Source of the DNA: Chryseobacterium sp. Bi04
GTDB lineage: Bacteria; Bacteroidota; Bacteroidia; Flavobacteriales; Weeksellaceae
DNA: 64,000 nt
Assembly: GCF_918698085.1 (NCBI RefSeq)
Contig: NZ_CAKKLP010000006.1
Location: forward strand, 124,001-188,000
Reading direction: 5' to 3'
The notes below the pieces were generated by a model. That model worked only from the letters and a program-made list of their open reading frames with translations. It was not told where the DNA came from and did not search any database. Below, piece by piece: positions 33,223 through 46,574 of the stretch. The number at the start of each line of letters is the position of its first letter. The stretch's first letter is position 1. The position numbers were made by a program, and so were the translations under genes.

Positions 33223-34461
33223 TTAATTTCTCCAAAACAGATTTCCGTCATTCATCAGGGCTTCTATTGTGGTCATTCTGGAAACAGCTTCTGCAGAGCA
33301 TGATGCACCGGTAAAAACAACAGCTGCTTTATCTCCTGTTTTAGGCCACTGCTGATTTCCTTTTTCATCCAGTGGAAGAATACCCTGGGTAGCAAACTGC
33401 AGTGCTCTTGATAAGGCCAGCTCTGTTGCATATCCATATAATTCGGCGATTAAATTTGCTTTCTGCAGCATATTTCCTGATCCGAAGGTACTCCAGTAAT
33501 CCTGTACATTATCGTTTCCTATCAATACATCCACTCCATGTTTCTTTAAGGTTGGTATGGGCATTACAGTTCCTTTGAACGGTACAGAAGAGGCTATCCC
33601 CACTTTACCTTCAGCCAGCCTTTCAGCAATCTGTTGTGTTTCTTTTGGAGAAAGATGGGCTAAAGCAAAAGCATGACTCACAAATGTTTTCCCCTGGAGT
33701 TCCGGGTTTTCAATAGCTTTATCAATCAGGTAATTGATGGTTTTCATCCCCGACTCTCCTACTTCATGGAGGTGAATATCAATTCCTTTATGATGATCTA
33801 AAGCCAGCTGAACGGTAAAATCCATTACTTTTTCAATACTTCCATCAATGCTTAAAGGATCAAGCCCCCCGATAAAACCTACACTTTTCAGCTGAGCTGC
33901 TTCTTTCATTAAAGGAAGCGTTTCCGTGTAGTATACTCCATGTTGCGGGAAAGCAACCAGTTCAGCCCTGAAAGAGTCTTTTTTATTTTCAAGTGCCTGC
34001 TCCAGATGTTCAAGTGACTGTAATCCCGAGGTAGGATCAATATTAAAATGGGCTCTTGCAAAATGAGTTCCGTAGCGTTGCTGTAAGCTGATCAGCTGTT
34101 CGGCTCTTTCTACAGAAGTTTTTAGTAATTCAGGAATAATTTCCTGTTCATACGCAATCATATCTTTTACGGTTCTTCTTTTCGGAGAAAGTGCCTTCCA
34201 TGGAAGTCCGTATAATGTTTTATCCAAATGGATGTGCATATCTCTGAAAGCCGGAAGCATCAGATATCCTTTAGCATCTATAGCATTAGAAGCCGGATCA
34301 TTAATTCTTACGGCTTTTATTTTCCCATCTTCAATGTCAATACTGAAAAGATCTGTTTTTGTACCTGTTACCTCTTCATTTTCGTATTCAAAACCTGTTT
34401 CCAGGCGGACATTTTTCAGTGAGTATTTTCCTTTTGCAGTTAATTGATATGGAAATTGCAT
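33223..34461 (-). CDS. cytosine-deaminase-like amidohydrolase (cytoplasmic paralogue)
   Basis: The 412-residue TIM-barrel metallo-hydrolase has the metal ligands HxH in DMHIHLDK, His in GIDIHLHEVGESG and SHAFALAHL, and the conserved Asp in IGNDNVQDYW. The pattern is that of cytosine deaminase/N-isopropylammelide-type amidohydrolases. It is clearly paralogous to the gene at 36295-37626, sharing SLKNVRLETGFEY, MDFTVQLALDH and QQWPKTGDKA. It lacks the Tat-type N-terminus of that paralogue, so it should stay in the cytoplasm. A -7 match (TAATTTTG, 34489-34482) lies 21 bp upstream. Substrate unknown. Confidence 0.82.
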   Translation of the reverse strand: MQFPYQLTAKGKYSLKNVRLETGFEYENEEVTGTKTDLFSIDIEDGKIKAVRINDPASNAIDAKGYLMLPAFRDMHIHLDKTLYGLPWKALSPKRRTVKDMIAYEQEIIPELLKTSVERAEQLISLQQRYGTHFARAHFNIDPTSGLQSLEHLEQALENKKDSFRAELVAFPQHGVYYTETLPLMKEAAQLKSVGFIGGLDPLSIDGSIEKVMDFTVQLALDHHKGIDIHLHEVGESGMKTINYLIDKAIENPELQGKTFVSHAFALAHLSPKETQQIAERLAEGKVGIASSVPFKGTVMPIPTLKKHGVDVLIGNDNVQDYWSTFGSGNMLQKANLIAELYGYATELALSRALQFATQGILPLDEKGNQQWPKTGDKAAVVFTGASCSAEAVSRMTTIEALMNDGNLFWRN

Positions 34462-36294: not shown

Positions 36295-37626
36295 TTAAAA
36301 GACTACATTTCCCTGATGCACCAATGACTCAACAGTTGAAATCCTTGATACGGCTTCTGCAGAACAGCTTGCATTCAGCAATACAAAATCTGCTTTATCA
36401 CCTGTTTTAGGCCACTGCTGACCTCCTTTATCATCTAATGGAAGAATATTTCCTGTCGCCAGCTTTAAACTTCTTGACAATAAAAATTCTGTAGAATAAC
36501 CATATAGCTGGGCCATCAGGTTGGCTTTCTCCAGCACACTCCCTGTTCCGAAAGTATTCCAGTGGTCTACAATACTGTCATTACCTGTCAATACCGTTAC
36601 ATTATGTTTGTATAATGTTGGGATAGGCATAATCATTCTTCCAAAAGGAATCGTGGAAACAATTCCGATTTGGGCATCTGCTAATTTCTCAGCTATTTCT
36701 TCCTGCTTTGTACTCTCCAGTTTGGCCAGTATGAAACAGTGACTTAAATAGGTTTTCCCTTTTAAAGAAGGATTTTCATTCAATTTTTTAATAAGATACT
36801 CTACAGTTTTCAATCCGGAATCTCCGGTTTCATGCAGATGAATATCTATTCCTTTTTGATGATCCAATGCCAACTGAACGGTAAAATCCATTACTTTTTC
36901 AATATTTCCGTCAATATTGAATGGGTCTACGCCCCCAATAAAATCAATATCCATCTTCGCAGCCTCTTTCAGATAAGGAGCTGAATCGGTATAGAATACA
37001 CCATGCTGCGGAAAAGCAACCAGCTCGGCTCCAAAGCCTTTCTTTTTATTCTCTAAAGCCTTTTGAAGGTTTTTTAATGATTGGAGTTTCGAAGTAGGTT
37101 CAATATTTACATGGCTTCTGGCATATGAAGTTCCTTTTGACTGAAGCAGCTCAATCAGTTTTTCAGCTTTAAATGTTGAATTTTTCAGCATCTCAGGAAG
37201 TATTTTCTGTTCCAGCTCAATCATTCCTTTGATTCCGCCGGTTCTTTTTCTTACAGCCTGCCATTGATCTCCATACAATGTTTTATCCAAATGAATATGC
37301 ATGTCTTTAAACGCAGGGAGCATTAACAATCCTTTTGCATCTACTGCTTTAGCATTAGGCTGGTTTGGGATGATCTTTGTGATCTTTCCATGCTCAACTT
37401 CTATATAAAACAGATCTGTTTTGGTGGATGCAACTTCCCCCTCCTGATATTCAAAACCGGTTTCTAAACGGACATTTTTAAGGCTTAACTTCCCTTTAGT
37501 CCATATATTCTTTTCATCAAAAAACGGTGATGCTGCCATGATATTAGGTATTAAGGTTAATCCGGCCATTGCCCATGCAGAATTTCTGATAAAATCCTTA
37601 CGGGATATATTATTGTCTGAAGTCAT
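36295..37626 (-). CDS. cytosine-deaminase-like amidohydrolase with Tat-type N-terminus
   Basis: The 443-residue protein has an N-terminal SRKDFIRNSAWAMAGLTLIP, a Tat-like signal (S-R-K-D-F rather than two arginines) that should target the folded metalloenzyme to the periplasm. The metal sites match its paralogue at 33223-34461: DMHIHLDK, IDIHLHETGDSG, LSHCFILA and TGNDSIVDHW. ATG 37626 is used because the upstream 16 residues precede the signal and overlap its promoter. It is followed by the ankyrin lipoprotein. The substrate is unknown; a heterocyclic amide/deaminase substrate is inferred from the family. Confidence 0.82.
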   Translation of the reverse strand: MTSDNNISRKDFIRNSAWAMAGLTLIPNIMAASPFFDEKNIWTKGKLSLKNVRLETGFEYQEGEVASTKTDLFYIEVEHGKITKIIPNQPNAKAVDAKGLLMLPAFKDMHIHLDKTLYGDQWQAVRKRTGGIKGMIELEQKILPEMLKNSTFKAEKLIELLQSKGTSYARSHVNIEPTSKLQSLKNLQKALENKKKGFGAELVAFPQHGVFYTDSAPYLKEAAKMDIDFIGGVDPFNIDGNIEKVMDFTVQLALDHQKGIDIHLHETGDSGLKTVEYLIKKLNENPSLKGKTYLSHCFILAKLESTKQEEIAEKLADAQIGIVSTIPFGRMIMPIPTLYKHNVTVLTGNDSIVDHWNTFGTGSVLEKANLMAQLYGYSTEFLLSRSLKLATGNILPLDDKGGQQWPKTGDKADFVLLNASCSAEAVSRISTVESLVHQGNVVF

Positions 37627-37646
37627 CCTTTCCAATCTATTTATGA

Positions 37647-37675
37647 CAAAATTAAAAAGAAGTCTGCTGACCAAA
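37647..37675 (-). promoter_or_regulatory. complete Bacteroidota promoter (TTTG-N17-TAATTTTG)
   Basis: On the minus strand TTTG (37675-37672) and TAATTTTG (37654-37647) are 17 bp apart, an exact -33/-7 arrangement, 21 bp upstream of the amidohydrolase ATG at 37626. This also supports that start. Confidence 0.78.
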
Positions 37676-37782: not shown

Positions 37783-38359
37783 TTGTCATTCAGGAATCTA
37801 AACGGCTGATTCACTTTGATTGCTGAGACTCCTACGGAGTGACAAACTATATGGTTATTTTTAGACGTAAAAATTACTTACGACTTATACAAAAGTTTAC
37901 CAGCATCCTTTTCATTCCGCAGGAATCTAAACGGCTGACTCACTTTGATTACTGAGACTCCTACGGAGTGACAAACTATGTGCTTATTTTTAGATGTAAA
38001 AATTACTTACGATTTATACATAAGTTTACCAGCATCCTTGTCATTCCGCAGGAATCTAAACGGCTGACTCACTTTGATTACTGAGACTCCTACGGAGTGA
38101 CAAACTATGTGCTTATTTTTAGACGTAAAAATTACTTACGTTTTATACATAAGTTTACCAGCATCCTTGTCATTCCGCAGGAATCTAAACGGCTGATTCA
38201 CTTTGATTACTGAGACTCCTACGGAGTGACAAACTATGTGCTTATTTTTAGATGTAAAAATTACTTACGATTTATACATAAGTTTACCAGCATCCTTGTC
38301 ATTCCGCAGGAATCTAAATTATGCTGCTTACTCTGTTGAGACTCCTACGGAGTGACAAA
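37783..38359. repeat. 129-bp-period tandem repeat array (about 4.5 units)
   Basis: Five copies of a ~67-bp core start at 37783, 37909, 38038, 38167 and 38296, separated by four nearly identical 62-bp spacers; the last three intervals are exactly 129 bp. Each core begins TTGTCATTCCGCAGGAATCT and ends with the imperfect inverse AGACTCCTACGGAGTGACAA. The core is thus an imperfect inverted repeat whose two halves are themselves hairpins (ATTCC-GCA-GGAAT and ACTCC-TAC-GGAGT). The first copy has a 3-bp deletion and the last a diverged middle. No reading frame runs through it. It fills most of the 790-bp gap between the amidohydrolase and hemL genes; the remainder holds only the hemL terminator and a promoter. 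Confidence 0.9.
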
Positions 38360-38436: not shown

Positions 38437-38459
38437 AAACCGGATCTAAAATCCGGTTT
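38437..38459 (-). terminator. terminator of hemL
   Basis: AAACCGGAT (38437-38445) pairs with ATCCGGTTT (38451-38459). The minus strand continues with T4 (38436-38433), 6 bp after the hemL stop. Confidence 0.85.
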
Positions 38460-38464
38460 CACTA

Positions 38465-39754
38465 TTATTTATTAGAATATTCAAATTTTCTTACTGCTTC
38501 CAGCGTCATATCAATTTCTTTATCCTTGATCGCATCGCTGATGAAATACGTTTCATATCCGCTTGGTGGAAGATACACTCCATTTTGCAGCATCTGATGG
38601 AAGAAGTTATTAAATAACGAATGATTGGCTTCCTGAGCTTCATCAAAATTTGAAACCCTGTTGATATGGAAGAATACAGACATCATAGACCCTTTTCTAT
38701 TGATCTTATGGGCAATTCCTTTTTCATTTAAAATTTTTCCGATTTCAAAATCTAAAGTTTCTGTTGTCTTATTCAGTCTGTTGAAGAATTCCGAATCATT
38801 TTTAATAAGCTGAAGAGTTTTTAATCCTGCTCTCATAGCCAATGGATTTCCACTTAATGTTCCAGCCTGATATACGCCTCCTTTTGGAGCCAAATGATCC
38901 ATAATTTCATTTTTTCCGGCAAAAGCACCTACCGGCAGACCTCCACCGATTACCTTTCCATAGGTTACCAGGTCGGCTTTCACATTGAAAAGCTCCTGAG
39001 CTCCACCAAAAGACAATCTGAAACCGGTCATTACTTCATCAAAAATAAGTAAAGCACCATTCTCGTCACAGATTCTTCTTAAATTTTGAAGGAAATTATT
39101 TTCAGGTAAGACACAACCCATATTTCCGGCAACAGGTTCGATGATTACTGCTGCAATTTCACCCTGATTATGGCGGAACAGATCTTCCACCTGTTCAAAA
39201 TCGTTGTAACGGGCTAATAAAGTATCTTTAGCTGTTCCTGCTGTTACTCCCGGAGAATTGGGATTTCCGAATGTAGCAGCTCCACTTCCTGCTTTAATCA
39301 GGAATGAATCTGAATGTCCGTGGTAGCAACCTTCAAATTTTACAATTTTATCTCTTCCTGTATACCCTCTCGCCAGTCTGATGGCACTCATACATGCCTC
39401 AGTTCCTGAAGAAACCATTCTGATCTGGTCGATATTAGGTACATTTTCAATGATAAATTTTGCAATTTCTGTTTCCAGTTCTGTAGGAGCACCGAAAGAA
39501 AAACCTTTCTCAGCCTGAATTTTCAGTTCTTCCAAAACTTTAGGATGGGTATGTCCCAAGATGGCAGGCCCCCATGAGTTGATGTAATCGATATACGTAT
39601 TATCATCTGCATCGGTAAGGTAAGCACCTTTTGCTGATTTCATGAAAACAGGAACCCCTCCCACTGATTTGAATGCGCGAACCGGAGAGTTTACTCCTCC
39701 CGGAATGTATTTGTAGGCTTCATCAAATAAAGCCGAACTTCTTTGATACTTCAT
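38465..39754 (-). CDS. hemL: glutamate-1-semialdehyde 2,1-aminomutase
   Basis: The 429-residue fold-type I PLP enzyme converts glutamate-1-semialdehyde to 5-aminolevulinate in the C5 route to haem. Motifs: [18 protein letters not shown] at the start, [43 protein letters not shown] and the Schiff-base lysine in [15 protein letters not shown] (about residue 266). The length is normal. Transcription may continue from the glucosaminidase gene 73 bp upstream. Confidence 0.97.
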
Positions 39755-41937: not shown

Positions 41938-42498
41938 GGTTTCGGCTAAAGCCAATCAATGAATACTTATTTGTAAGTGGACTAAAGTCCACTCCTATTG
42001 ATATGGAATAAGCTCTGGTAGAATCAGATTATATTGTAATTTAGTAAGTCTTACAAAATGACAGCTCTATGGAATCTGTTTTTTGAAATAATGGCTCAAA
42101 TATGACCATGTAAATGGCATCTATTCACGATCTTTGTCATCCCGTAGGGATCTCAGCCATATTTTACGAACAATTATCAAGAATATTTTAATGATCGGTT
42201 TAAGCTAAGCCAATCGATGAAATGTTTATTTGTAAGTGGACTAAAGTCCACTTCTATTGAATGGAATAAGCTCTGGTAGAATCAGATTATATTGTAATTT
42301 AGTAAGTCGTATGAAATGACACACTTTATCAAATCTATTTTTTGAATAATGGCTCAAATATGACCATGTAAATGGTATCTATTCACAATCTTTATCATCC
42401 CGTAGGGATCGCAGCCATATTTTACGAACAATTATCAAGAATATTTTAATGATCGGTTTTAGCTAAGCCAATCGATGAAATGTTTATTTGTAAGTGGG
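41938..42498. repeat. 258-bp-period direct repeat array (about 2.2 units)
   Basis: Aligned copies begin at 41938, 42197 and 42455 (GGTTT..GCTAA.GCCAATC) and run through GTGGACTAAAGTCCAC (a palindrome at 41977-41992, repeated near 42236), TGGAATAAGCTCTGG (42004 and 42262) and the small hairpin ATCCC-GTA-GGGAT (42139-42151 and 42397-42409). The third copy breaks off after TTTGTAAGTGG. TTTGTCATCCCGTAGGGATCT is the same module as in the 129-bp array at 37.8 kb. There is no coding potential. This fills the 774-bp gap between the D-cysteine-desulfhydrase-like gene and the hypothetical gene at 42586. Confidence 0.85.
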
Positions 42499-46392: not shown

Positions 46393-46543
46393 TATTTTAT
46401 ACCTTTCGCATTTGCCAATACAAGGAGTAATTTGTTCTTTAATACCGAATTATTATAACGCAAAGGTTCATTTTTAGGTGCTTAAACTTAAGAAAACTAA
46501 GAGAAACCAGTAAGCTGATCTGACAGAGCAGCTGTGAAAGACA

Positions 46544-46574
46544 CTCTTAACTCTTAACTCTTAACTCTTAACTC
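46544..46574. repeat. heptanucleotide microsatellite CTCTTAA x4
   Basis: Four perfect units of CTCTTAA plus CTC. It covers the last codons and the stop of the minus-strand membrane gene ending at 46554; each 7-bp unit gained or lost would shift the frame at the C-terminus. Confidence 0.85.

Follow-up and report, generated by a model that had tools for sequence, protein, structure and literature searches.

REPs that carry a CGTC tag occur in Bacteroidetes with no transposase attached to them; their tag is often TGTC, their stem begins with AT and they lie mostly in pairs with the tags outside (Di Nocera et al. 2013, PMC3733652). The REP pairs known as REPINs are linked to RAYT enzymes (Bertels and Rainey 2011, PMC3116915), and in REPIN clusters nearly identical elements are repeated in tandem together with DNA from their flanks (PMC3116915). 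In Neisseria, intergenic NIME arrays span 200-2700 bp (PMC3898611), and BIME-2 of E. coli binds gyrase (PMC2817692). Since no transposase is tied to the CGTC-type REPs, the question of how they spread lacks an answer. Here we describe an array from Chryseobacterium sp. Bi04 that is very probably a tandem cluster of TGTC-tagged paired REPs of the CGTC superfamily, formed by local amplification through recombination or slippage.

The stretch of DNA analysed (the window) comprises 64,000 nucleotides. Direct reading of the gap between hemL and an amidohydrolase-like gene showed five inverted-repeat cores and four 63-bp spacers at positions 37783-38358, the exact number of these near-identical units being possibly an artefact of the draft assembly. 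The features are arranged as follows:

36295-37674, minus strand: amidohydrolase-like gene, left neighbour (reading frame; named from the initial annotation and the sequence)
37783-37845, plus strand: core 1, REP pair with a left half of 17 nt owing to a 3-bp deletion (direct reading, unit search)
37846-37908, plus strand: spacer 1, 63 bp, homologous to the spacers of other species (direct reading)
37909-37974, plus strand: core 2, REP pair with halves 37909-37928 and 37955-37974 (direct reading, unit search)
37975-38037, plus strand: spacer 2, 63 bp (direct reading, spacer comparison across species)
38038-38103, plus strand: core 3, REP pair with halves 38038-38057 and 38084-38103 (direct reading, unit search, half-motif search)
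38104-38166, plus strand: spacer 3, 63 bp (direct reading, spacer comparison across species)
38167-38232, plus strand: core 4, REP pair with halves 38167-38186 and 38213-38232 (direct reading, unit search, half-motif search)
38233-38295, plus strand: spacer 4, 63 bp (direct reading, spacer comparison across species)
38296-38358, plus strand: core 5, REP pair of differing interior with halves 38296-38315 and 38339-38358 (direct reading, unit search, half-motif search)
38437-38459, minus strand: terminator-like hairpin of hemL, between hemL and the array (scan, listed on the plus strand; fold on the minus strand)
38465-39754, minus strand: hemL, glutamate-1-semialdehyde aminotransferase, right neighbour (reading frame; named from the initial annotation and the sequence)

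The cores measure 63, 66, 66, 66 and 63 bp in order, with 126, 129, 129 and 129 bp from start to start. TRF gave a single array (37791-38359, period 129, 4.4 copies, 94% matches) and an in-register repeat search gave spacings of 129, 129 and 129, so that the 129-bp spacing reported in the initial annotation for the last three intervals is confirmed. The division of the period into a 67-bp core and a 62-bp spacer proposed there was one base off (66 and 63), although the array itself is real. The TTGTCA/TGACAA ends and the two internal hairpins ascribed to each core were also found, with the exception of the start of core 2, which reads TTTTCA; either half of a core is able to form a hairpin. 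In the window the left half-motif has 10 matches, against 0 in shuffles, and the right half-motif 8, against 0.02 expected. With counts so far above the shuffles the array is not due to chance. The array is not covered by any reading frame of at least 80 aa, and the search of the window against Rfam gave no match.

Each core is made of two inward-facing 20-nt units, TTGTC-ATTCC-GNA-GGAAT-CY, with the TTGTC tags outside. It is this 20-nt unit that is conserved and not the 66-bp core, the interior of the pair differing between loci; hence, of the small REP/MITE-like palindrome suggested at first, the REP character holds, but the element appears to be a pair of REP units and not one 67-bp MITE. 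The stem was analysed in a set whose partner halves had been found via the GACAA tag only, and which is therefore unbiased for the stem. In shuffle tests that ignore common descent, 120 of 140 cells were paired, against 109.9 ± 2.0 after shuffling, and 10 double changes were counted, against 2.7 ± 1.4; the signal was weaker on smaller sets. In the array, both bases of one stem pair are changed between the right halves (ACTCC...GGAGT) and the left ones (ATTCC...GGAAT), which retain the standard form. The TTGTC tag before the stem is conserved in distinct half-sites. A search with the five central bases left free, whose rows were copied by hand, gave a GNA loop in 139 of the 150 listed rows (93%), each of the four bases occurring at N, and T-A as innermost stem pair 27 times, against 8.0 ± 2.2 expected. 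Taken together, the double changes in the stem and the predominance of the GNA loop point to the small hairpin as the target of selection.

The whole core also folds better than all 200 shuffles, at about -10 to -11 kcal/mol as DNA (z about -3.5 to -3.8) and at -23 to -27 kcal/mol as RNA (z -5.0 to -6.4). A long hairpin comprising the whole core was considered as the selected structure and rejected, as neither covariation of the interior nor a matching loop base N in the two halves spoke for it. The interiors of the pairs have no excess of complementarity (96 matches against 104.6 ± 7.6). In single-stranded DNA, a GNA loop with a closing C-G pair is unusually stable, and therefore a single-stranded DNA hairpin would be the likelier form to be recognised.

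When up to three mismatches are allowed, the unit has 93 copies in the Bi04 genome, whereas its reversed control has 2. The element is thus dispersed well outside the array, whose being without scattered copies would have spoken against the initial annotation. Among close neighbouring units, 26 have the tags outside (20 of these spanning 63-69 bp), 13 have them inside, several of the latter being cluster spacers, and none point in the same direction. In a sample of about 1.65 Mb, part of it picked for having clusters, 69 of 70 unit sites fall outside reading frames of at least 100 aa, within which about 86% of the sampled DNA lies, and the 16 distinct unit-bearing gaps are convergent in 8 cases, co-directional in 7 and divergent in 1. 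At least six other tandem clusters of the unit exist in the same genome, each with a private spacer and a period of its own, including:

Contig C2: further cluster, period 193/389 bp
Contig C3: further cluster, period about 175
Contig C8: further clusters, periods 220, 228 and 341
Contig C14: further cluster, period 213/239
Contig C18: further cluster, period 180/183

In 1.19 Mb of unselected DNA (parts of C1, C2 and C3) the unit was present in 2 of 7-8 long-period arrays. The idea that long tandem arrays are REP arrays in general was discarded, the rest being repeats in coding DNA, a cluster of tRNAs and repeats of other kinds. One array of this genome (C3, 40092-40613, period 112, 4.7 copies) has a tRNA-like unit with anticodon CAT. 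Another palindrome, TTTTATC-N3-GATAAAA, lies in arrays on C2 (267901-268276), C8 (69579-70135) and C14 (112369-113450); its loops are GAA, GCA or similar, with TCC in one, and it represents perhaps a second family with this type of loop.

Counting the Bi04 genome itself, 87 of 98 genomes of the genus contain the unit, with 0 to 86 copies. Named records in which it was found belong mainly to Chryseobacterium, Epilithonimonas, Halpernia and Flavobacterium, and an exact 18-mer of it was present in 16 of 395 genomes of a phylum-wide sample, mostly from the same genus, family or order. The exact unit was absent from the viral contigs searched.

The hemL-amidohydrolase gap was compared among those relatives whose hemL is most similar. 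Seven have no core there (G010, G082, G089, G042, G030, G077 and G025), three have a single one (G037, G044 and G023) and three a damaged one (G069, G070 and G002); two cores were found in G020 and G066 and remains of two in G083, G016 has three with the last one cut short, and G096 has five, as does the Bi04 genome. The array is consequently neither unique nor fixed in number, and the variation in copy number that had been predicted between strains is borne out at the level of species, with 0 to 5 cores among relatives. In G025 the same gap (L077) holds GGGCTAAAGCCC palindromes in place of the TGTC REP, so that the palindrome family accommodated by this gap varies from species to species.

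The spacers of Bi04, G020, G096, G016 and G083 are homologous. Hence the clusters at this gap either predate the species concerned or have passed between them. Inside the Bi04 genome the units of the array are 92-98% alike, but only 75-88% alike to those of other species; in G096 two unlike units alternate, and a 258-bp doublet is repeated exactly. Such a pattern of likeness is expected from local amplification and homogenisation that occurred repeatedly. The amplification of core plus spacer assumed in the initial annotation is in agreement with both the changed number of units and their greater likeness within than between genomes. One spacer of G096 aligns over its full length with the hemL-side flank of Bi04 and of G020 (z 4.5 and 5.9), supporting a putative duplication of the pair together with its flank through one spacer type, the other spacers being too diverged. 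An origin of a spacer from the amidohydrolase-side flank was rejected, similarity being at most weak and confined to G066. In a poorly supported hemL tree, species with and without clusters are not cleanly separated, which points either to repeated gain and loss of units or to several losses. A clean empty site with target boundaries, which would also show any target-site duplication of the kind left by a MITE of a DDE-type insertion sequence, was not found among the relatives, which are too diverged.

It could be argued that the number of units merely reflects the assembly of near-identical repeats from short reads and that the true count differs, since the genome is available as a draft of 34 contigs and the units are up to 98% alike. 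The units do contain distinguishing bases, the first and last cores are distinct, and G096 and G020, each in a single contig, have an identical layout with an almost equal period in this gap; the explanation is extremely improbable, and it bears on the count and not on the nature of the array. Local amplification of a REP pair would have proceeded from an ancestral pair of 20-nt hairpin units, tags outward, in the hemL-amidohydrolase gap. This pair would have been duplicated in tandem, taking along some 63 bp of adjacent DNA. The unit count has since risen and fallen, probably through unequal recombination or replication slippage, while the units within a genome have stayed alike. We infer the recombination or slippage step from the outcome that was seen, namely a changed number of units that are alike within a genome, and it is likewise this outcome that bears on the recombination hot spot suggested in the initial annotation. 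Scattered through the genus, the element is a palindrome that codes for nothing, is probably parasitic and would be tolerated chiefly at the ends of genes.

The location of the array raises the question of its effect on the adjacent genes. The strand of hemL contains the hairpin at 38437-38459, with a fold of -15.2 kcal/mol followed by a run of T, and, of the 98 genomes of the genus, 97 have a conserved hemL. In array-free relatives hemL and the amidohydrolase gene are still side by side or nearly so. Given the terminator-like hairpin that hemL has of its own and the persistence of both genes next to each other where the array is missing, a role of the array for the flanking genes is unlikely on sequence grounds, and most likely it has no specific role. 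Its hairpins might nonetheless stop, slow or protect hemL or amidohydrolase transcripts and be kept for that, as the strong RNA folds of the cores and the avoidance of divergent gaps by unit sites, that is, their position at gene ends, would suggest. Yet the hemL hairpin precedes the array, several relatives have no core at all in the gap, no T run follows the cores (the scan gave no other terminator) and the interior lacks the covariation of one long RNA hairpin, which makes a transcriptional function very improbable and leaves unsupported the transcription barrier between the two genes proposed in the initial annotation. An array required as a row of many sites for protein binding or supercoiling control, for example by gyrase, is a still less probable explanation: the layout of oppositely facing tandem REPs does resemble that of the gyrase-binding E. 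coli BIME-2 (PMC2817692), but copy numbers of 0 to 5 at the gap and 0 to 86 genome-wide are hard to fit with a needed function. In the same region, the amidohydrolase-like gene at 36295-37674 has a paralogue on its own strand at 33223-34461, with an AraC-like gene and an ankyrin-repeat gene between the two, as judged from the sequences, and a perfect repeat of the heptamer ACTCTTA (4.6 copies by TRF) is located at 46543-46574 of the window.

The single-stranded DNA hairpin would be recognised by some enzyme that spreads the element in trans. Y1 transposase genes were the class searched, at 6 loci of the Bi04 genome and 30 from ten high-copy relatives, and at none of these 36 loci, from 11 genomes, was the unit within 1.5 kb. 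A Y1 transposase was accordingly dismissed as the partner of the unit. No Y1 hits were obtained in G066 (86 copies) or G055 (68 copies), and the existence of high-copy genomes that lack such a gene suggests that the element can persist without a Y1 enzyme in residence. The negative result is informative, because the same loci revealed a different palindrome: GGGCTTTAGCCC precedes the Y1 domain by about 100 bp at 10 of the 36 (9 genes; 0.04 expected per locus), and GGGCTAAAGCCC lies just past the Y1 gene at 8 of these 10, the upstream copy being alone at two. The loci concerned are L008, L122, L124, L128, L132, L135, L136, L140 and L141/L145, two of them pieces of one gene. The palindrome-flanked proteins resemble subclass 1.2 of PMC6006769 (YIKNQ..HH), a subclass reported to be generally without such flanking palindromes (PMC6006769). 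The Y1 gene and GGGCTTTAGCCC/GGGCTAAAGCCC could represent an undescribed pairing of transposase and palindrome.

Two further observations concern palindromes. A second tandem array in the window (41949-42497, period 258, 2.1 copies by TRF) has units that each contain GGACTAAAGTCC, of the family of GGGCTTTAGCCC/GGGCTAAAGCCC, and one degenerate TGTC REP half (42134-42153). At L010 (1495-1539 and 1803-1841), near position 49300 of contig C19 of the Bi04 genome, a RAYT-like Y1 gene contains a palindrome with perfect 20-bp arms inside its frame and has a related one upstream; REP insertions inside genes of subclass 2.4 have been described (PMC6006769). As for the TGTC units, we consider it possible, if unlikely, that they are kept as single-stranded DNA mini-hairpins (C-GNA-G) and spread in trans by an enzyme of a non-Y1 type; if true, such an enzyme would answer how CGTC-type REPs move. 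The genus offers a clean test bed, with 0 to 86 copies among relatives and 0 to 5 units at one gap, and the clusters are usable as variable-number markers. We regard the array as a tandem REP cluster of the ordinary sort, moderately interesting with respect to the movement of REPs of this kind.

The arrangement of these units can be compared with that of four known systems. E. coli BIME-2 similarly contains tandem, oppositely facing REPs between genes, but its REP sequence is another one and a RAYT (yafM) is present in the genome. REPINs share with the element two inverted REPs with a spacer, a size of about 70 bp, dispersal and tandem clusters that include flanking DNA; they differ in being of the GTAG type, in having RAYT genes alongside and in their covarying paired interiors. 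Neither a link to an enzyme nor a paired interior was found when looked for here, and for this reason the element was not filed as a REPIN despite its similar build. Likeness to the CGTC-tagged REPs is closer, involving the unpaired tag, the A-T, T-A start of the stem, paired changes in the stem, tags-outside pairs, the intergenic position at gene ends, many copies per genome and no associated transposase (here for Y1 genes only). However, CGTC-1 to CGTC-4 have stems of 8-9 bp and loops of 4-5 nt, and clusters are rare in most CGTC families but common for the present unit, whose 5-bp stem and 3-nt GNA loop place it outside the four published families. A search of the open-access literature found no description of this REP family in Chryseobacterium, and the family, although of a known REP kind, appears to be undescribed. 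The nearest look-alike in the same superfamily is dRS3/NIME of Neisseria (PMC3898611; CGTC-1 in PMC3733652), which is built from 20-bp palindromes, with ATTCC...GGAAT at their ends, that alternate with spacers of greater length. The dRS3 core reads ATTCCC-N8-GGGAAT, and that of the present unit ATTCC-GNA-GGAAT; NIME spacers are shared RS families, whereas here, where no phage link was seen, each cluster has spacers of its own.
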